A DNA stretch of 64,000 nt, from contig NZ_JABBGG010000001.1 in the NCBI RefSeq assembly GCF_012927275.1, positions 744,001 through 808,000 on the forward strand, written 5' to 3'. Of this stretch, positions 34,947-43,950 are shown piece by piece; the stretch's first letter is position 1; every line of letters starts with the position of its first letter. Under the pieces are notes generated by a model. The model ran no database searches, was not told the origin of the DNA, and saw only the letters and a list, made by a program, of their open reading frames with translations. Made by a program: the position numbers and the translations under genes. This stretch comes from Massilia polaris (GTDB lineage Bacteria; Pseudomonadota; Gammaproteobacteria; Burkholderiales; Burkholderiaceae_D).

Positions 34947-35729
34947 TCAGTCGTAGTAACCATAATAGTCGCCCCCGGGGAAAGACCGTGCCTTGTTGCA
35001 GATAAGGCTGATATGGGGGCAGTGATCCAGCCGGCGCAGGGCCTCCTTGACGGCGCCCTGGGTGGTCGATTCGGCCTCGATCACCATTACCACCTGGCCC
35101 ATTTGCGCGGCCAGCACGCTGGCCTCGGTGGTCAGGAGCAGCGGCGGTGAGTCAAAGATCACGATCCGGTCGGGGTAGCGGTTGCTGATCTCGACCAGCA
35201 GGGCGCTCATGGACTGGCTGGCCAGCAGCTCGGTCGCATGCTTGTTGTTGCGGCCCGCCGGCAGCAGGCTGAGGGTGTCGATGTTGGTCTTCAGGATGAC
35301 GTCGGCCACGCTCAGTTTTTCGCTGAGAAGGAGATCCATCAGGCCCGGCGCCGCGGCCAGGCCGAGCACCTTCAGCACCGAAGGGCGCGCGACGTCGGCG
35401 TCGACCAGCAGCACGGTGTGGTCCTTCTCCATGGCGATGCTCATGGCGAGGTTGATCGCGCAATAGGTCTTGCCTTCGCCCGGCAGCGCGCTGGTGACGA
35501 CGATCAGGTTGCGGTTGCTGCTTCCGCCGCCGGCGTGCAGCGCGTTGCGCAGCAGCGGGCGCTTGATGATGCGGAAGTCCTCCGCGGCGCTGGTGCGGCC
35601 GCCGTCGTGCGTGACCATGCCCATCTGGTGCAGGCGCGCCAGGTTGATGTCGACATAGCGGCGCGCATCGGCGCCGCCGTCCGGGGCGGCCAGCGCCGCG
35701 CCGTGGTCGTGCGTGTCCAGGGTATCCAT
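34947..35729 (-). CDS. BY-kinase (CpsD/TIGR03018-like) of the exopolysaccharide locus
   Basis: A 260-residue cytoplasmic bacterial tyrosine kinase. Walker A 'ALPGEGKT' is at about 81-88, Walker A' is 'VLLVDADVARP', and Walker B is 'IVIFDSPPLL'. The C-terminal tail has a Tyr cluster (GGDYYGYYD), the autophosphorylation site in this class. It works with the chain-length determinant, whose gene lies 19 nt upstream on the same strand, to regulate polymer length and export. The first 70 residues include the usual exosortase-locus prefix ('RPLLRNA'). Confidence 0.9.
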   Translation of the reverse strand: MDTLDTHDHGAALAAPDGGADARRYVDINLARLHQMGMVTHDGGRTSAAEDFRIIKRPLLRNALHAGGGSSNRNLIVVTSALPGEGKTYCAINLAMSIAMEKDHTVLLVDADVARPSVLKVLGLAAAPGLMDLLLSEKLSVADVILKTNIDTLSLLPAGRNNKHATELLASQSMSALLVEISNRYPDRIVIFDSPPLLLTTEASVLAAQMGQVVMVIEAESTTQGAVKEALRRLDHCPHISLICNKARSFPGGDYYGYYD

Positions 35730-35748: not shown

Positions 35749-37278
35749 TCAGCTTCTCAGGAGTGCCGATGCCATCATCACGGCGTACACCGCGGCCAGT
35801 CCCGCGATCGACATGCCGAACAGGTGCTGGCCGCGGCGCCGTTTGACCTTCTCGGGTTCGGTCCAGTTCATCGAGACGGTGCCCAGCACGGGCAGTCCCG
35901 TAATCTCGCGCATCACGCCCGGTCCAAGGAAGGCAGGGCGGCTCTGGCTGATCAGGAGCGCGATGCCGGGTCCGGCGCCGAGCGCCATCAGGAACGCGAC
36001 GGTGTAGAACAGCAGGCGGTTCGGGCCGATTGGGGCGATCGGCATGGTCGGCGGATCGATGATCTTGAACGACATCATCTCGGTGGTCGACGACAAGTCG
36101 CCCGACAGTTTGGCCGCCTCGCGCCGGCCGATCAGCTTTTCGTAGTTGTCCTTGTTGATCTCGTAATCGCGGTTCAGCTGCGCCAGCTGCGACTCGACCT
36201 CCGGCACCGCATTGCTCTGCGCGAGAAGGCGCGCATGGCGCGCGGTGTACTCGTTGACGCGCGCCGCCATCGCCGCGACCCGTCCATCGGCTTCAGTCAA
36301 CGCGACCTTCAGCTGCTGCAGCATGGGGCTGTAGTTCCTGCCAGGGTCGCCATCGTTCATCTTCAGCTTGTTGTCTTCGATCTTGCGCGCCTCGAGCTGC
36401 GCAAGCAGGCGGCGGGCGGCGAGGATGTCGGGATGCTGCTCGGTGTACTGAAGGTGCAGCGCATCGAGGTTCTTGTTAACTGCGGCGATGCGGGTGTCGA
36501 TTTCGGGATTTGGCAGCGATGCGGGACGCTGCTCGATGCCCGTTAAAAGCGCATCGCCGCTGACCTGGGCCTTGATGGCGGCGCGCGCCTGTTCGGCTTC
36601 CAGCAGTTCGAGCCTGGCGGCGCTCAGGTGATCGGCGGCGATCGCGAGCTGCGCGCCGTAGTCGACGCCCTGGCGCGGCAGCAGCGTGCTGTTGCGCAGC
36701 TTGAACTCCTTGACCATGTTCTCGGCCGCCACCAGGCGGTCTTCGTAGTTCTTGATCTGTTCATCGAGGAACTGGACCGCCTTCTGCGAGTCGCCGAGCT
36801 TGCCCTTGAAGCTGCCCTCGACGAAGATCGTCAGCAGCGACTGCACGACGTCGCGCACCAGCTTAGGATTCCTGTCCTGGTAGCTGATCGCGTAAATATC
36901 GTAGGCAGCGGTGCCGCCGATCTTAATCTTCGACATCAGCCTTTCGACCTGCTGCTCGTGCTCGCGCGCGGTGGTGGCGCGCACGTCCAGGTCGACCATG
37001 CGCATCACTCTTTCGACGTTCGGGCGGCTGAGCAGGGTGCGGCTCATGATGGCCACCTGCTGCTCGACGTTCGGCACACTGGTCATGTTCGACAGCAGCG
37101 GTTTGAGGATGGTCTGGGTGTCGACGAACACGCGGGCGGTGGTCTGGTACTCGTCCGGCATCGAATACGCCTTGATCCAGCCAGCCACGCCGACCAGCCA
37201 GGCGATGGCGACGGCGTGCCAGCGGTACTTCCAGATGCCTCGCACGCTCGACAGCAACTGGCTGATTATGTCCTCCAT
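35749..37278 (-). CDS. XrtA-type polysaccharide chain-length determinant (Wzz/PCP family)
   Basis: A 509-residue inner-membrane polysaccharide co-polymerase. One transmembrane helix lies near residues 20-36 and another at about 425-445, flanking a large periplasmic, strongly helical domain (coiled-coil-rich about 150-370). The opening 'MEDIISQLLSSVRGIWKYRWHA' and 'DEYQTTARVFVDTQTILKPLL' match the exosortase-associated family. The ATG at 37278 has GGAG 9 nt upstream; a longer in-frame start at 37398 would add a basic, non-family N-terminus. A perfect TATAAT (minus strand, 37339-37344) lies 61 nt before the start. Confidence 0.88.
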   Translation of the reverse strand: MEDIISQLLSSVRGIWKYRWHAVAIAWLVGVAGWIKAYSMPDEYQTTARVFVDTQTILKPLLSNMTSVPNVEQQVAIMSRTLLSRPNVERVMRMVDLDVRATTAREHEQQVERLMSKIKIGGTAAYDIYAISYQDRNPKLVRDVVQSLLTIFVEGSFKGKLGDSQKAVQFLDEQIKNYEDRLVAAENMVKEFKLRNSTLLPRQGVDYGAQLAIAADHLSAARLELLEAEQARAAIKAQVSGDALLTGIEQRPASLPNPEIDTRIAAVNKNLDALHLQYTEQHPDILAARRLLAQLEARKIEDNKLKMNDGDPGRNYSPMLQQLKVALTEADGRVAAMAARVNEYTARHARLLAQSNAVPEVESQLAQLNRDYEINKDNYEKLIGRREAAKLSGDLSSTTEMMSFKIIDPPTMPIAPIGPNRLLFYTVAFLMALGAGPGIALLISQSRPAFLGPGVMREITGLPVLGTVSMNWTEPEKVKRRRGQHLFGMSIAGLAAVYAVMMASALLRS

Positions 37279-37338
37279 TCTGTCGATCTCCGTAGTCGTG
37301 CGACCGGAAGCGCATGCCTCGCTCCGCACATATTTTCG

Positions 37339-37344
37339 ATTATA
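37339..37344 (-). promoter_or_regulatory. Candidate -10 box of the chain-length/BY-kinase/glycosyltransferase operon
   Basis: TATAAT on the minus strand, 61 nt before the chain-length start. No good -35 is found at 16-18 nt (AAAATT-like), so the call rests on the -10 alone. Confidence 0.35.
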
Positions 37345-37467
37345 TGGCGTGTGGGCAACCAAATTTTGCCTACCTCGGCCGCCGTTGATTCGAATCAAAA
37401 CTGTCGAGCCTGGCAGAAAAAATGGGGCCGGCCAGTTGCGCGGCTGACCGGCAAATGCGCATTCCAG

Positions 37468-38418
37468 CTATTCCACTGCCTGCCTGCGGCGCCGGCCAAT
37501 CGCGGTGATGCCGAGCAGGCCAATACCGAAGATGGCCAGGGTGGCCGGTTCCGGTACTGCCTGCGTCGCCTGCAACGCGTTGGCCAGCGTGTTGTGCTGG
37601 ATGGTGATCTGATACGTGCTGGCGGTGCTGAGCATGCCGGTCGTCGAACTGAACGACATCTCGCCCGGGTTGTAGGTCGTGGTGCCGGGGAAGCCGTCGG
37701 TGCGGCTGACGTTGCTGAAGGCGTTCAGCTCGTTCGGCGCGTACGTAAACACCGTCATGCCGGTAGTCATGTCGATGATGTTGATGCTCCACGACAGCCG
37801 GGCATTGGCGTTGGTGGTCGGCGCGCCATCGGCCGATACGTAGGCCTGGGTGAATGGCGTGGCGTCGAAGGCGATCGTCATTGAATCGGCCGCACCGAGG
37901 GTGAAGCTGAAGGTGGTGGAAGTTCCGACATCCGAGTTACCGGATGCCATGCCGTTCATCGCCAGCGACGCATCGGCGCGGGTCGATGCCGTCGCACCGG
38001 CCGGGGTCGTGCCGATCGTGATCGAGCTGCCGGACAGGTTCTGGTCGGCATAGCCGAAGGTGCCTGGCACCGGAGGTGCGCCGCTGAATGGGGCGAAGTT
38101 ATTCTCGGGCCGGGCTGGGTTTGGCGTGCCAACCGTCTGGTGCGCGACGTCCGGGTTGACGCCGCTCAAAATGCCAAACGACTGTGCGCCGTTCGCGAAT
38201 ACGCCGTTCAGCGAAGCGGTAGCGTGCGCATCGTTGGTTCCGGTCAGCATGCCAAAGTCGGTCACGCTGAACGGCGTACCCGACGAATGCAGCAAGCGGA
38301 AGTTATCGATGACGAGGATGGACTGGGCGAACGCATCGGCTCGCGCGCTGCCCATCCCACCGATGGCGATGCTGGCGGCCATGGCCGTCAGCAGCATGGT
38401 TTTGCGGACGATCTTCAT
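37468..38418 (-). CDS. PEP-CTERM sorting-domain protein
   Basis: A 316-residue secreted protein, a substrate for exosortase. The signal peptide (about 1-27, ending ARA) is followed by a Ser/Thr/Gly/Asn-rich, Cys-free extracellular region with low Lys content. The C-terminal sorting signal begins at residue 288: V-P-E-P, a hydrophobic helix (LAIFGIGLLGITAIG) and a terminal Arg cluster (RRRR). No enzymatic domain is seen; it may be a matrix or floc protein. The ATG at 38418 has AGGAG 6 nt upstream. A near-consensus sigma-54 promoter lies 67 nt upstream, matching control by PrsR. Confidence 0.93.
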   Translation of the reverse strand: MKIVRKTMLLTAMAASIAIGGMGSARADAFAQSILVIDNFRLLHSSGTPFSVTDFGMLTGTNDAHATASLNGVFANGAQSFGILSGVNPDVAHQTVGTPNPARPENNFAPFSGAPPVPGTFGYADQNLSGSSITIGTTPAGATASTRADASLAMNGMASGNSDVGTSTTFSFTLGAADSMTIAFDATPFTQAYVSADGAPTTNANARLSWSINIIDMTTGMTVFTYAPNELNAFSNVSRTDGFPGTTTYNPGEMSFSSTTGMLSTASTYQITIQHNTLANALQATQAVPEPATLAIFGIGLLGITAIGRRRRQAVE

Positions 38419-38484
38419 GTCAATCTCCTGTTGGGGATGAAACTGGATTGCTGGGGCGACAACTTGCCGCCTTGCCATCTGTAA

Positions 38485-38500
38485 TGCAGCTTCCGTGCCA
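38485..38500 (-). promoter_or_regulatory. Sigma-54 (RpoN) promoter of the PEP-CTERM gene
   Basis: The minus strand reads TGGCACGGAAGCTGCA. This has the -24 TGGCACG block in full and the -12 TGC core at exact sigma-54 spacing, with one change (C for T) from the TGGCACG-N4-TTGCA consensus. It sits 67 nt upstream of the PEP-CTERM start and would place transcription start about 55 nt before the ATG. PrsR, encoded 12 kb away, is the obvious activator. Confidence 0.8.
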
Positions 38501-38725
38501 CACCGTTTTCCCCTATCAAATCAAGACCTTGACCTTCGTACCGTCGAGTTGACGAGCCTACCCGGACCGCGGTGGCAAAAAATCCGACGCTGTCCGCAGG
38601 ATTGAACTTGCGCTATGGCTGCTCAGTTCGCGGGAACTATCTTATGCATGAGCATGTCAGACAGGCACAACTTTTCGTTCGCGCCGGCAACCGGTGGCGA
38701 CGGTTCCTGTGGAGGACGACCAACC
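38501..38725. promoter_or_regulatory. Intergenic control region between PEP-CTERM gene and N-acyltransferase gene
   Basis: This 225-bp stretch lies between divergent genes. It should hold the PrsR upstream activating site for the sigma-54 promoter; an A-tract element at about 38571-38590 (GGCAAAAAATCCGAC) 75-95 bp upstream of the -24 box is a candidate but unproven. The right end carries the GGAGG (38711-38715) of the acyltransferase gene. An in-frame ATG at 38615 extends the acyltransferase frame but lacks a ribosome site. I found no sigma-54 match toward the acyltransferase. Confidence 0.4.
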
Positions 38726-39469
38726 ATGCTTAAAGATGAGCTGCCAATTGCTACATTCGTATGTCCGACCGGACTGCGCGACCTGTGTATCGGTGAACAA
38801 GGAACGGACGCAAGCCTGGACCACCCGCTGGATGTCCAGGTATTCCATATACGCCTTGCCAACTCGGCGGGCCGGCGCGAAGCGGCCAGCCTGCTGATCC
38901 GCAAGATGTACGGCTGGCGCGGCTACGCGGTCGCGACCGAAGAAGACCTCGAGCCGAACAAGATCACGCTGTACGCGGAAACGGGCGGGGTGGTGGTCGG
39001 CACCATGAGCCTGTGCCTCGACCGCGACACCAGCCTGCCAGCGGACGAGAACTTCCGCGACAAGCTCGACGCGCTGCGCAACCAGGGACGGCGCTTATGC
39101 GAACCGTCGCGGCTGGCAATCGACAAGGGCGTGACCAAGCGTGTGTTCGCGTCGTTGATCCACATCTCCTATATTTACGCGCGCAACATCCACGGTTTTA
39201 CCGACTACATCATCGAAGTGAATCCACGCCACGTCATGTTTTACAAGCGCATGCTGGGTTTCCGCGATTTCGGCGGCGAACGGCCCTGCACGCGGGTCGG
39301 CGCGCCTGCCGTGCTGCTGCGGCTCGAGCTGGACTACATGGGCGAGCGGATCCGCCGCTGGGGCGGCTTGATGGAAGCGCATGGCGAGGAGCGCTCCTTC
39401 TACCCGTATTTCTTCCCGACCTGGGACGAGCCCGGCATCACCGCGCGCCTTGTGGGCGGGCGTAGCTAA
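38726..39469 (+). CDS. PEP-CTERM-associated acyltransferase, FeeM-like N-acyl amino acid synthase
   Basis: A 247-residue GNAT-fold protein of the exosortase-associated acyltransferase type (TIGR03694-like), related to FeeM N-acyl amino acid synthases that join a long fatty acyl group from acyl-ACP to an amino acid. Recognisable blocks are 'IRKMYGWRGYAV', 'ETGGVVVGTMSLCLDRDTSLPADE', 'LCEPSRLAIDKGVTKRVFASLIH', 'YIIEVNPRHVMFYKRMLGF'. The ATG at 38726 is chosen because GGAGG lies 10 nt upstream; earlier ATGs at 38615 and 38648 lack one. The next gene's ribosome site overlaps its stop, indicating coupling to a flavoenzyme. Confidence 0.83.
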   Translation: MLKDELPIATFVCPTGLRDLCIGEQGTDASLDHPLDVQVFHIRLANSAGRREAASLLIRKMYGWRGYAVATEEDLEPNKITLYAETGGVVVGTMSLCLDRDTSLPADENFRDKLDALRNQGRRLCEPSRLAIDKGVTKRVFASLIHISYIYARNIHGFTDYIIEVNPRHVMFYKRMLGFRDFGGERPCTRVGAPAVLLRLELDYMGERIRRWGGLMEAHGEERSFYPYFFPTWDEPGITARLVGGRS

Positions 39470-39480
39470 TGGAGGCCGCC

Positions 39481-41154
39481 ATGACAGCCACAGACGAACC
39501 GGACCAAGGTGCCGGCACGGCCGCGATGGCGGGTGCGGAGCGCCGCGCGCTGCTGCTGCGCGAACTGCGCGATGTGGTGGGGGTCGAGCAGGTGCGCGAC
39601 GACGACATCACGATAGAACGCTATGCGCGCAGCACGTCCTCGCGCAGTACGCGTGCACTGGCCGTGATCACGCCCGGCAGCGCCGATCAGGTCGCTGAAC
39701 TGGTAAGAGTCGCCAGGCGCCACAAAGTACCCTTGTACCCGATCAGTACCGGGAAAAACTGGGGCTACGGCGACGCCTGCCCGGTCATGGACGGGCAGGT
39801 GATCGTCGAACTGTCGCGGATGAACCGTATCATCACCGTCGACCCGACGCTGGCGTATGCCGTGATCGAGCCGGGCGTGACGCAGCAGCAATTGTCGGAC
39901 TACCTGATCGAGCACAAGCTCAACTTCTGGATCGACTGCACCGGCGCCGGACCCGACACCAGCTTCATGGGCAATATCCTGGAGCGCGGCTTCGGCCATT
40001 CCCCATACGGGAATCGCCTGCAGCATGTGGCCGGCATGCAGGTCGTGCTGGCGTCGGGTGAGGTGCTCAATACCGGCTTCGGCCACTATCCGAATGCCAA
40101 AGCGACCCATTTGTTCCCTTACGGCGTCGGTCCCTTCCTCGATGGCCTGTTCACCCAGTCGAATTTCGGCATCGTCACGCGCATCGGCCTCTGGCTGATG
40201 CCGAAAGCGGAATGCATCAACCATTTCTTCTGCACGGTGGACAGGCACGAAGACATCGGTCCCGTGGTCGACGCGTTGCGGCCGCTGCGCATGAACGGCA
40301 CGCTGCGCAGCATCCTCCATATCGGCAACGACCTGCGCGTGATATCGGGCGGCGCCGTGTACCCGCGTGAGCGTGCCGGCAACGCCTTCCCTCTGCCGGA
40401 AGCGCTGCGCGCGGCAATGCGTGACGGGGCCGGGGTGGGCGCCTGGACGGTATCGGGCGCGATGTATGGCAGCACGCGGCAGGTCGCTGCCGCGCGGCAC
40501 GCGCTGAAGCAGGCGCTGAAAGGCACGGCGGCGAAGACGACCGTCCTGACCGAAGGCAAGCTGCGCATGGCTGCGATGCTGGCGCGACTGTTTGGCGACA
40601 GCGCAGCGGGCAAACGCCTGCGCGCGAAAGTGGACCTTGGCGTATCCTTGTTCGCGATGAACCGGGGCGTCCCTAGCGGCAGGTTCCTGGCGGGAGCGTA
40701 CTGGCGGCGGCGCGGTGGATTGCCAGCCGGATTTCCGAAGCAGGCCAATCCAGCGGCCGACAACTGCGGGTTGCTGTGGGTATCGCCGATCCTGCCGATG
40801 CGGGGCGAAGACCTGCTCGAGCTTCACCGCATGGTCGAGCCGGTCTTCAAGGAATATCGCTTCGACCTGTTCGTCACTTTCAGCATGATCAATGAACGCT
40901 CGCTCGGCGGCGTCATTACGGTCGCCTACGACAAGGACGACCAAGAAGAGGTGGCGCGGGCCATGGCTTGCTACCAGGCCGTGTTCGACCTGGTGATGGC
41001 GGCCGGCTACATTCCCTACCGCGTAGGCAACCAGTCGATGGCGCAGCTCGATCCGAACGCCGACGTGTTCTGGTCGACCGTGCGGCAGATCAAGGCCGCG
41101 CTCGATCCCGACGGCCTCATCTCTCCAGGCCGCTACGAGCCTTGGCGCCTGTAA
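39481..41154 (+). CDS. FAD-binding oxidoreductase, VAO / 4-cresol dehydrogenase type
   Basis: A 557-residue flavoenzyme of the PCMH superfamily. The FAD-binding loop 'YPISTGKNWGYGDACPV' (about 86-101) is very close to that of 4-cresol dehydrogenase and vanillyl-alcohol oxidase. 'RMNRIITVDPTLAYAVIEPGVTQQQL' and 'FGIVTRIGLWLMPK' are further family blocks, and 'SPGRYEPWR' closes the protein. These enzymes oxidise para-substituted phenols, often with covalent FAD. The ATG at 39481 has GGAGG 5 nt upstream; a start at 39469 would overlap that site. Coupling to a FeeM-like synthase suggests it modifies the N-acyl amino acid, perhaps an N-acyltyrosine; this is inference. Confidence 0.84.
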   Translation: MTATDEPDQGAGTAAMAGAERRALLLRELRDVVGVEQVRDDDITIERYARSTSSRSTRALAVITPGSADQVAELVRVARRHKVPLYPISTGKNWGYGDACPVMDGQVIVELSRMNRIITVDPTLAYAVIEPGVTQQQLSDYLIEHKLNFWIDCTGAGPDTSFMGNILERGFGHSPYGNRLQHVAGMQVVLASGEVLNTGFGHYPNAKATHLFPYGVGPFLDGLFTQSNFGIVTRIGLWLMPKAECINHFFCTVDRHEDIGPVVDALRPLRMNGTLRSILHIGNDLRVISGGAVYPRERAGNAFPLPEALRAAMRDGAGVGAWTVSGAMYGSTRQVAAARHALKQALKGTAAKTTVLTEGKLRMAAMLARLFGDSAAGKRLRAKVDLGVSLFAMNRGVPSGRFLAGAYWRRRGGLPAGFPKQANPAADNCGLLWVSPILPMRGEDLLELHRMVEPVFKEYRFDLFVTFSMINERSLGGVITVAYDKDDQEEVARAMACYQAVFDLVMAAGYIPYRVGNQSMAQLDPNADVFWSTVRQIKAALDPDGLISPGRYEPWRL

Positions 41155-41172
41155 AAATATCCGACACCGGCC

Positions 41173-43950
41173 TCAGAGCGTTGCAAGCAGCGCCCTGGCT
41201 TCGTCGCGGCGGGTGAAGTCCTTGGCCGAAAGAGCGCGCTCGAGCTCGCGGCGGGCCGATGCCTTATCGCCGGATTTCGCCAGCACCATGCCGTAGTGAT
41301 AGCGGATTTCGGCGGCGTCCGGCGCGAGGGCGCTGGCCTTCTGCAAGAGCGGCAGCGCGCGTCCGAGGTTGCCGGTCTCGAGGTGGATCCAGCCAAGCGT
41401 GTCCATGATCGCGGGGCTGTTGGGCGCGAGCTTGTGCGCGCGCTCGGCGTGATGCAGCGCTTCCTTGCGGTTCATCCGCTGGTAGGCCCAGGCCAGGTCA
41501 TTGAGCGCGATGACGTTGTCGGGATCGCTCTTGAGCACGGCGTGCAGATGCCCCGCGGCCGCTTCGTAATCCCTGGCCACCACCATGCTGCTGGCGTAGT
41601 ACAGCCGCGTCGGGATGTCGTCGGGGCGATTCCGGAACCATTCGTTCATGCGCGCCTGCGCGTCGGCGGCTTTGCCATTTTTAATCAATGCGCCGTGAAG
41701 CTGGATCAGCAAGGCGCCGTTTTGTTGCAGGTCAAACGCGCGCTCGTACGCTTTCAGCGCTTCCGGGTGCTTGTTCTGCGTGCTCAGGACGTCGCCCTCC
41801 AGCTTATGCCCTCGCGCCGATTCCGGCCGCCGGTTCTGCACCGACCGCGCCAGGCTCAGGGCCTCGGCGAACTTTTTTTGGCCGATGTGGACGTTGAGGA
41901 GGTTCACCTGGGCGTCGGCCAGGTCGGGGTCGAGCGCCAGCGCCTTGTTGAGGGACGCGAGCGCGCCGGCTTCGTCCTTCAGTTTCATCTGCACGGTCGC
42001 GTAGCGTGCATGCAGTCCGGCATTGCGCGGCGCCATGGCGACCAGCCTGGCGTAGCCTTCCGCGGCAGCCGCGAAGTCTTCGTTCATGTAGGACACCTGC
42101 GCCAGCATCGCAAGCGCATCCGGGTTGGCCGGATGAGTGGCGACCAGCTTTTGCGCGAGCACCAGCGCTTTTTGCCTTTCGCTGGCGCGGGCATAGAAGT
42201 CGACCAGCCGCAGTGCGACGCGCAGGTTCGCGGGATTGTCCGCGCTGGCCCGTTCCAGCCACGTCATCGCTTCAGCACGCTTGCCTTCGGCCGCCGCCAG
42301 CCTTCCCAGCGCTTCCATCAATGCGGCGTCGCCTGGAGCCTTGGCGAGGGCGTTCCGGTAGCGTTTGCGGGCGTCGGCTGGGCGGCCTTCGAGCGTGTCG
42401 AGCTGCGCCAGGTTGTCGAGCGCCGGCAGGTAGGACGGATCGAGCTTGAGCGCCGCTTCGAAACTGGCACGCGCCGCACCGAGGTCATGCTTCGCGAGCC
42501 AGATGCCGCCCTTGAGATTCTGTACCAGCGGATTGTTGGCCTGGTTCTCCATGCGCTGGACGGTTGCCATCGCTTTATCCGGCGCTTTCGCGCGCAAGTA
42601 GCTCATGGCGAGCAGCATCCCGGCGCGGTCGCCGGCGTTATCCAGCGATGCGGCGCGCTCAAGTTCCGCGACAGCGCGGCCGTTGTCGCCATTGCCGAGG
42701 CGGCTCAACGCGACGCCGGTGCGCAGGCCCGGGGCGGCGGGCCGCAGCGCCGCGGCCTTTTCAAAGAATTCGGCAGCCTGGGTGAAGTGGCGGCCGCGCA
42801 GCTTGGCTTCGCCGGCGAGCGCGAGCAGCTCGACATCGTCGGGGTGGGCGAGGATCAGCGGGCGCAGCAGGACGAGCGCCTCGTCCGGTGCGTTGCGGCG
42901 CAAATGAAGCGCCGACATCAGCTTGGACGCGTACAGGTGGCGCGGATACGATTCGAGGAACTTTTGCAGGTACTGCTCCGCCTGCTGTGTGGAGCCGAGG
43001 GCCGACTGTATCGCGCCCGCCAGCAGCACGCTCGGCAGGTGGTCGGGGATTTCGCGCAGGATTTTCTGTACCGATTCGAGCGCCGCCTTGTGCTTGCCTT
43101 CGCGATAGTCCAGCATGGCTTGCGAATGGAATACGGCGATCGCTCCCGGCGCCGCTGTCCTGGCCTGGGCGATGGTCTCGCGTGCTTGCCTCAGGTTGCC
43201 GCTGTCGATGTGCAGGTTGCTCACGTCGACCAGCGCCTGCATGTTGGCGGGACGCAGCGCCAGGATGCCGCGGTACGCACTCATCGCTTCAGCCGGCTTG
43301 CCCGAGGCGCGATGCAGGTCGCCGCGCAGGCGCAGCGCATCGATGCTGGACGGGCTGGCCTTGAGCGCCTGGTCGAGGTACGCATGGGCCTGGGCGGTAT
43401 CCTGCGCACCAATCGCCAGGCGCGCCATGCCAACCAGCGCGTCGGGCGAGGCCGGATTGAGTTTGAGCGCGTCGGCGAAGGCCTCGCGAGCCGCGTCCGG
43501 TTTGCCAAGGCCGAGCAGGGCGCTGCCGCGCAGGGCGAGGATCAGCGGCCGGCGCGCCGGTTCGGCGGCCGGCTGGATCTCGCCCAGCAGCCGGTCGTAC
43601 TGCCCCTGCATCAGCATTGCCTTGCCGAGCAGGGGCGCGATCTGTCCGGCGTCGCCACCGAGCGCCATCGCGCGGCGCAGCTCTTTTTCCGCCGAGACCG
43701 CGTCGCCATCCTCGACGTACAGCTCGCCGAGCAGGATGCGGGCGGCACTGTTGGCGCCATCCTGCTGGATCACGATCTTAAGCTGGATCACGGCCGCGCG
43801 GCTCTCGCCCTGGTCGCGGTATTTCCGCGCCTCAGCGATCATCGCGCCGATCTCCTTGTCGCCACGGCATCCGACGGCGGAAATGCCGAGCGCTACGGCA
43901 AGCGCCGCGGCAACGGATCGGGACCACAAGGGTTGTTTTTGCTCGAACAT
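41173..43950 (-). CDS. prsT: PrsT, PEP-CTERM-system TPR-repeat lipoprotein
   Basis: A 925-residue lipoprotein. The signal peptide ends in a lipobox-like A-V-G-C with Cys28 as lipidation site. From about residue 40 to the end it consists of some 20-23 TPR repeats, as in the very long TIGR02917 proteins found only with exosortase systems. It is likely periplasmic, anchored in the inner or outer membrane, as a scaffold for export or sorting. The ATG has GGAG 6 nt upstream. prsT usually stands beside prsK and prsR; here it is separated from prsR by 14 kb and converges on the flavoenzyme gene (18 nt). Confidence 0.92.
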   Translation of the reverse strand: MFEQKQPLWSRSVAAALAVALGISAVGCRGDKEIGAMIAEARKYRDQGESRAAVIQLKIVIQQDGANSAARILLGELYVEDGDAVSAEKELRRAMALGGDAGQIAPLLGKAMLMQGQYDRLLGEIQPAAEPARRPLILALRGSALLGLGKPDAAREAFADALKLNPASPDALVGMARLAIGAQDTAQAHAYLDQALKASPSSIDALRLRGDLHRASGKPAEAMSAYRGILALRPANMQALVDVSNLHIDSGNLRQARETIAQARTAAPGAIAVFHSQAMLDYREGKHKAALESVQKILREIPDHLPSVLLAGAIQSALGSTQQAEQYLQKFLESYPRHLYASKLMSALHLRRNAPDEALVLLRPLILAHPDDVELLALAGEAKLRGRHFTQAAEFFEKAAALRPAAPGLRTGVALSRLGNGDNGRAVAELERAASLDNAGDRAGMLLAMSYLRAKAPDKAMATVQRMENQANNPLVQNLKGGIWLAKHDLGAARASFEAALKLDPSYLPALDNLAQLDTLEGRPADARKRYRNALAKAPGDAALMEALGRLAAAEGKRAEAMTWLERASADNPANLRVALRLVDFYARASERQKALVLAQKLVATHPANPDALAMLAQVSYMNEDFAAAAEGYARLVAMAPRNAGLHARYATVQMKLKDEAGALASLNKALALDPDLADAQVNLLNVHIGQKKFAEALSLARSVQNRRPESARGHKLEGDVLSTQNKHPEALKAYERAFDLQQNGALLIQLHGALIKNGKAADAQARMNEWFRNRPDDIPTRLYYASSMVVARDYEAAAGHLHAVLKSDPDNVIALNDLAWAYQRMNRKEALHHAERAHKLAPNSPAIMDTLGWIHLETGNLGRALPLLQKASALAPDAAEIRYHYGMVLAKSGDKASARRELERALSAKDFTRRDEARALLATL

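Follow-up and report, generated by a model that had tools for sequence, protein, structure and literature searches.

The window, the whole 64,000-nucleotide stretch of Massilia polaris DNA analysed here, contains two adjacent genes on the forward strand, encoding a FeeM-type N-acyl amino acid synthase (NAS, 38726..39469) and a VAO/PCMH-type FAD oxidase resembling 4-cresol dehydrogenase (39469..41154), which we denoted as VAO-A. The NAS open reading frame matched the Pfam FeeM family (PF21926; 1.1e-56, 191.5 bits) above its gathering cut-off of 27 bits, and the FeeM structure PDB 2g0b (9e-12), with which a putative active-site glutamate was aligned. The glutamate of the CEPSR motif was kept in 93/93 NAS of the bacterial family. 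The initial annotation had likened this acyltransferase both to FeeM and to the exosortase-associated acyltransferases, and only the former likeness stood: the exosort_acyl profile TIGR03694 (cut-off 111.95 bits) did not match the window acyltransferase even at E ≤ 10. FeeM-like enzymes and metagenome-derived NAS expressed in E. coli yield N-acyltyrosines (PMC4897644). A second in-frame ATG for the NAS lies at 38615, but the start at 38726 is favoured because it is preceded by GGAGG, its likely ribosome-binding site, at 38711..38715 (+). No sigma-70-like promoter was found between 38300 and 41400.

The oxidase open reading frame contained a FAD_binding_4 domain (5.9e-30) and matched PDB 9fge (1.5e-85) and 4-cresol dehydrogenase 1dii (3.3e-81), and within the VAO/PCMH family it was closest to the branch of 4-cresol dehydrogenase. 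Together with the phenolate-binding residues described below, the domain and the 1dii match bear out the earlier assignment of a VAO-type, 4-cresol-dehydrogenase-like oxidase. The stop codon TAA of the NAS gene (39467-39469) and the start codon ATG of the oxidase gene (39469-39471) overlap by one base in the motif TAATG (39467..39471, +). A further GGAGG at 39471..39475 (+) is a possible ribosome-binding site for the ATG at 39481, which we therefore regard as an alternative oxidase start. No gene for a cytochrome c subunit, as accompanies 4-cresol dehydrogenase, was found beside the oxidase gene, whose neighbours were the NAS gene and prsT, and inspection by eye revealed no obvious signal sequence in either protein.

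The pair is surrounded by genes of the XrtA/PEP-CTERM system. Divergent from the NAS gene is a gene for an EDSAP-1 family PEP-CTERM protein (37468..38478, -; NF041538, 295 bits, cut-off 100), and convergent with the oxidase gene is that for the XrtA/PEP-CTERM TPR protein PrsT (41173..43950, -; TIGR02917, 798 bits, cut-off 312). Farther away lie genes for the XrtA-system polysaccharide chain-length determinant pepcterm_ChnLen (35749..37398, -; TIGR03007, 573 bits) and the XrtA-associated tyrosine autokinase pepcterm_TyrKin (34947..35729, -; TIGR03018, 276 bits). Genes of the ligase_PEP_1, hydr2_PEP and EpsB_2 families were also found around the pair, and all XrtA/PEP-CTERM genes scored over their curated cut-offs, confirming that this is a PEP-CTERM locus as first proposed. 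Exosortase XrtA itself is encoded on another contig of the same genome (C12:141931-142707). The window itself is part of a 0.8 Mb contig; the assembly was rated 100% complete, and the closest named relatives found for the genome were Massilia soli and M. agrisoli. A sigma-54-like site with one mismatch, TGGCACGGAAGCTGCA (38485-38500, -), lies immediately ahead of the gene for the EDSAP-1 PEP-CTERM protein; sigma-54-like matches with up to two mismatches occurred over the window at chance frequency.

Adjacency of the two genes was conserved within the bacterial family. Among 195 family genomes, oxidases sharing at least 56% identity (VAO-A) were found at 25 loci, two of which were at contig ends and were left out, leaving 23 testable for the upstream gene. 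The initial annotation held that the proposal would fall if related genomes did not keep the two genes together; we looked for such loss, and a FeeM-type NAS gene lay directly upstream on the same strand in 23/23 testable loci, an arrangement therefore beyond chance. In the orthologues, the in-frame oxidase start closest to the NAS stop was located -26 to +12 bases from it, so the view of the pair as a translationally coupled unit holds both for the TAATG overlap in the window and for its orthologues. The chain-length determinant and PrsT genes were kept at most VAO-A loci, and so was the EDSAP-1 gene, which adjoins the pair there. In several other genera, an orthologous NAS gene without the oxidase was located between the chain-length determinant and PrsT genes, implying that the oxidase is accessory and was gained or lost there. 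At three loci (L067, L071, L084) VAO-A was absent, and genes for a trypsin-like protease and a large membrane protein lay between the NAS and PrsT genes. In one case (L072 5358-6886, genome G113) the VAO-A gene, close to the end of its contig, was broken into two overlapping frames, reflecting a frameshift or an assembly error.

The association extended beyond VAO-A. A distant oxidase subfamily (32-36% identity), denoted as VAO-B, adjoined other FeeM-type NAS genes at nine family loci. Most of these pairs were convergent, with one co-directional (G151) and one having a PEP-CTERM gene in between (G106); the link therefore recurs in a different arrangement. Some family genomes (L081, L091, L124, L125, L131) carried tandem NAS-PrsT-NAS-PrsT arrays ending in VAO-B. 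Searches at the class, phylum and order levels recovered 22 further clade members outside the family. An NAS or TIGR03694 acyltransferase gene was found within 1.5 kb of nine of these 22, three of the nine being from one genus, compared with 0/40 ordinary PCMH/VAO homologues (Fisher P 2.5e-5). Chance co-location of the oxidase and NAS genes was rejected on the latter count. The nine loci comprised eight TIGR03694 genes and one FeeM NAS gene, and every TIGR03694 gene tested at clade loci exceeded the curated cut-off. No acyltransferase gene was found within 1.5 kb of the other 13 members; an acyltransferase gene was located at about 2-5 kb in L225, L226 and L228, and PrsT about 3 kb away in L231 and L232. 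In the phylogenetic tree, the clade of the window oxidase was separated from PCMH/VAO/EUGO-type enzymes with a support of 0.96. The functional link to NAS enzymes recurs in several oxidase lineages and involves two families of acyltransferase.

One clade member (L230) directly follows and overlaps a gene for a single-module NRPS (TubC_N-C-A-T-TE, L230 1777-7669). The adenylation domain code, read against a GrsA reference for which the known GrsA code served as a check, was DASTVAAVCK, which we take to be a tyrosine signature. The NRPS and the clade gene together are a candidate for an NRPS-based counterpart of this chemistry.

In VAO, phenol binding and deprotonation are the task of Tyr108, Tyr503 and Arg504 (PMC5646868). 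By alignment, Tyr100 of the window oxidase (codon 39766..39768, +) corresponds to the phenolate-binding Tyr95 of PCMH, and Tyr517-Arg518 (codons 41017..41022, +) to Tyr473-Arg474. The Tyr/Tyr/Arg triad was invariant in 24/24 VAO-A and 9/9 VAO-B, complete in 19/22 clade members outside the family, and kept in every NAS-linked copy. Neither an NAS nor a TIGR03694 gene was found beside the three exceptions (L170, L171, L230), a suggestive loss of the triad in clade members without NAS, although these number only three. The initial annotation had proposed comparing the residues of the oxidase pocket with those of 4-cresol dehydrogenase; the likeness held for the phenolate triad but not for PCMH Glu380, Glu427 and His436, which are replaced by Phe406, Phe471 and Gly480 in the alignment. 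The two glutamate positions are occupied by Phe in nearly all VAO-A and are hydrophobic or otherwise replaced across the clade. Glu427 of PCMH activates water, and its loss would therefore disfavour hydroxylation. At the column of the covalent-FAD Tyr384 of PCMH, the window oxidase has Ala410, with Tyr411 next to it. The covalent histidines of VAO (His422) and eugenol oxidase (His390) were not matched either: a Leu occupies the column of a His in 8s7p that we took as the equivalent of VAO His422. The oxidase also has a cap insertion. Thus, the oxidase shares its fold, FAD domain and phenolate triad with PchF, VAO and eugenol oxidase, but differs in its separate clade, the insertion, the three missing PCMH residues and the missing VAO-type covalent His. 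Its clade, its residues and the missing cytochrome gene led us to reject the reading as an ordinary 4-cresol dehydrogenase. An AlphaFold2 model of the oxidase built from three sequences had a pLDDT of 36.

The NAS and the oxidase very probably act in the same pathway. The oxidase substrate is likely an N-acyl tyrosine, tyrosine being the amino acid that we infer, and by analogy with known systems we lean towards a two-step route in which the NAS acylates tyrosine and the oxidase oxidises the product via a quinone methide. The FeeM-type synthase would use acyl-ACP as donor and place its long acyl chain on the tyrosine amino group. The oxidase would hold the phenolate with Tyr100, Tyr517 and Arg518, and a hydride would pass from the benzylic carbon to FAD, forming a p-quinone methide. 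Since N-acyl tyrosine has an unblocked carboxyl, this intermediate would most likely lose CO2 and rearomatise to N-acyl-4-hydroxystyrylamine, in line with reports on FeeG and CndG; as a close second, loss of the alpha-proton would give N-acyl-2,3-dehydrotyrosine. Benzylic oxidation of acyl tyrosine gives a quinone methide that is described as being converted to a dehydrotyramine by CO2 loss when the carboxyl is free and to dehydrotyrosine when it is blocked (PMC3039461). FeeG was credited with converting N-acyl-L-tyrosine to N-acyl-4-[(E)-2-aminovinyl]phenol (PMC8762209). On the basis of the FeeG conversion and the free-carboxyl CO2 loss (PMC8762209, PMC3039461), oxidative decarboxylation was favoured and desaturation placed second. 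Should the substrate be N-acyl tyrosine, we marginally expect decarboxylation, see desaturation as a real but lesser prospect, and consider beta-hydroxylation improbable. We infer the oxidation product, the electron acceptor and the purpose of the pathway. Counting against this route are the NAS loci with no nearby tailoring gene, the genera that retain the orthologous NAS but not the oxidase, and the 13 clade members outside the family that had no acyltransferase gene within 1.5 kb.

FeeM and FeeG of the eDNA fee cluster likewise combine a FeeM-family N-acyl tyrosine synthase with an oxidative decarboxylase of N-acyl tyrosine (PMC8762209), and are by analogy a functional precedent for NAS plus oxidase. 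In contrast to the window pair, an exosortase/PEP-CTERM setting was not described for the fee cluster in the literature searched. CndG of the chondrochloren pathway is FAD-dependent and similarly oxidises an acylated tyrosine via a quinone methide (PMC3039461), but its substrate is NRPS-derived. FeeG is likened to the window oxidase by its reported function and CndG by its description, rather than by sequence, and none of the PDB matches of the window oxidase was named FeeG or CndG. The pair probably yields an oxidised fatty-acid–tyrosine lipid.

Three other roles for the oxidase were considered. Because the fold and the phenol triad are common to PCMH/VAO enzymes, the gene might encode an ordinary 4-alkylphenol oxidase located in the PEP-CTERM locus by chance or for regulation. 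The recurrent pairing with NAS or exosortase-associated acyltransferases across lineages and orientations, unmatched among the 40 ordinary homologues, makes this very unlikely, as do the separate clade, the lost PCMH residues, the cap insertion and the absence of a cytochrome subunit gene beside the oxidase in the window. The NAS might instead use a non-tyrosine amino acid, with the oxidase acting on a different phenolic partner, such as a polysaccharide phenol or a tyrosine within the neighbouring PEP-CTERM protein, which would suit the EDSAP-1-type PEP-CTERM genes flanking VAO-A and some VAO-B loci. However, the lack of an obvious signal sequence in both proteins, as judged by eye, speaks against such a partner, and the clade member behind the predicted tyrosine-activating NRPS and the FeeG and CndG precedents point to acyl tyrosine, so that we hold this reading improbable. 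Hydroxylation of the benzylic carbon to N-acyl-beta-hydroxytyrosine would follow from the ability of PCMH and VAO to add water to quinone methides (PMC5646868), but with both PCMH glutamates replaced in the clade we give it very little weight.

Desaturation of N-acyl tyrosine to N-acyl-2,3-dehydrotyrosine, with the oxidase in place of the nitroreductase (TyzC-like) desaturase, is conceivable but doubtful. Massilia makes dehydrotyrosine lipids, the kyonggic acids, for which ThiF and nitroreductase genes beside an NAS gene are the proposed desaturase genes, and this NAS-ThiF-nitroreductase set has been published as the candidate source of N-acyl dehydrotyrosines in Massilia and other bacteria (PMC12479983), which lends weight to an analogous tailoring role for the oxidase. 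Within 1.5 kb of the 93 NAS genes at family loci, the neighbours were VAO-A in 23 cases, VAO-B in nine, ThiF (usually with a nitroreductase) in 29 and neither in 32, and about a third of the loci lacked a tailoring gene within this distance. Oxidase and ThiF genes never lay within this distance of the same NAS gene (0/93; 32 versus 29 NAS), consistent with desaturation, as is the finding that VAO, given alkylphenols whose side chains are hydrophobic, carries out dehydrogenation and not hydroxylation (PMC5646868). However, for free-carboxyl acyl tyrosines the quinone methide is said to undergo decarboxylation (PMC3039461), and the window genome already has a cassette of NAS, ThiF-like and nitroreductase genes on contig C12 (L176 16179-19039), which adjoins a PrsT-like gene and lies about 17 kb from XrtA. 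Massilia umbonata makes only saturated kyonggic acids. The NasY-ThiF-nitroreductase (TyzB/TyzC-like) systems of stieleriacines, thalassotalic acids and kyonggic acids resemble the window pair in that an NAS is followed by oxidative tailoring and that family cassettes, including that of the window genome, often lie beside a PrsT gene, but they use ThiF and a nitroreductase in place of a VAO-type flavoenzyme.

We suggest tentatively, and at somewhat less than even confidence, that in several lineages of the phylum a distinct VAO/PCMH clade has become specialised in the oxidative tailoring of exosortase-linked N-acyl tyrosines, separately from ThiF/nitroreductase, so that an oxidised phenolic lipid (hydroxystyrylamide or dehydrotyrosine) would be a regular part of the exosortase/exopolysaccharide system. 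The genomic association of NAS with PEP-CTERM/exosortase was described by Craig, Cherry and Brady 2011, as cited in PMC4897644 and PMC7293339; neither an oxidase partner in that association nor the NAS-oxidase pairing across PEP-CTERM loci was found in the literature searched, which covered few subscription papers. The initial annotation had singled out the pairing as noteworthy, which is justified for the conserved coupled unit but less so for the combination of tyrosine synthase and side-chain oxidase, given the precedents of FeeM/FeeG and of CndG for chondrochloren. The pairing bears on the presence of N-acyl amino acid synthases in exosortase/PEP-CTERM loci, since a conserved oxidase of a phenol-specific family accompanies NAS in many lineages, which suggests that tyrosine is acylated and that the pathway ends in a defined oxidised lipid, recognisable by its exact mass shift. 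It also gives a predicted function to a flavoenzyme clade whose members would otherwise be labelled simply as FAD-binding oxidoreductases, and suggests that one bacterial family uses two non-homologous solutions, VAO and ThiF/nitroreductase.

The NAS, ThiF and nitroreductase proteins matched consecutive segments of the 989-aa model NCBIfam NF011425 (PRK14852), a pattern that suggests a natural three-part fusion.
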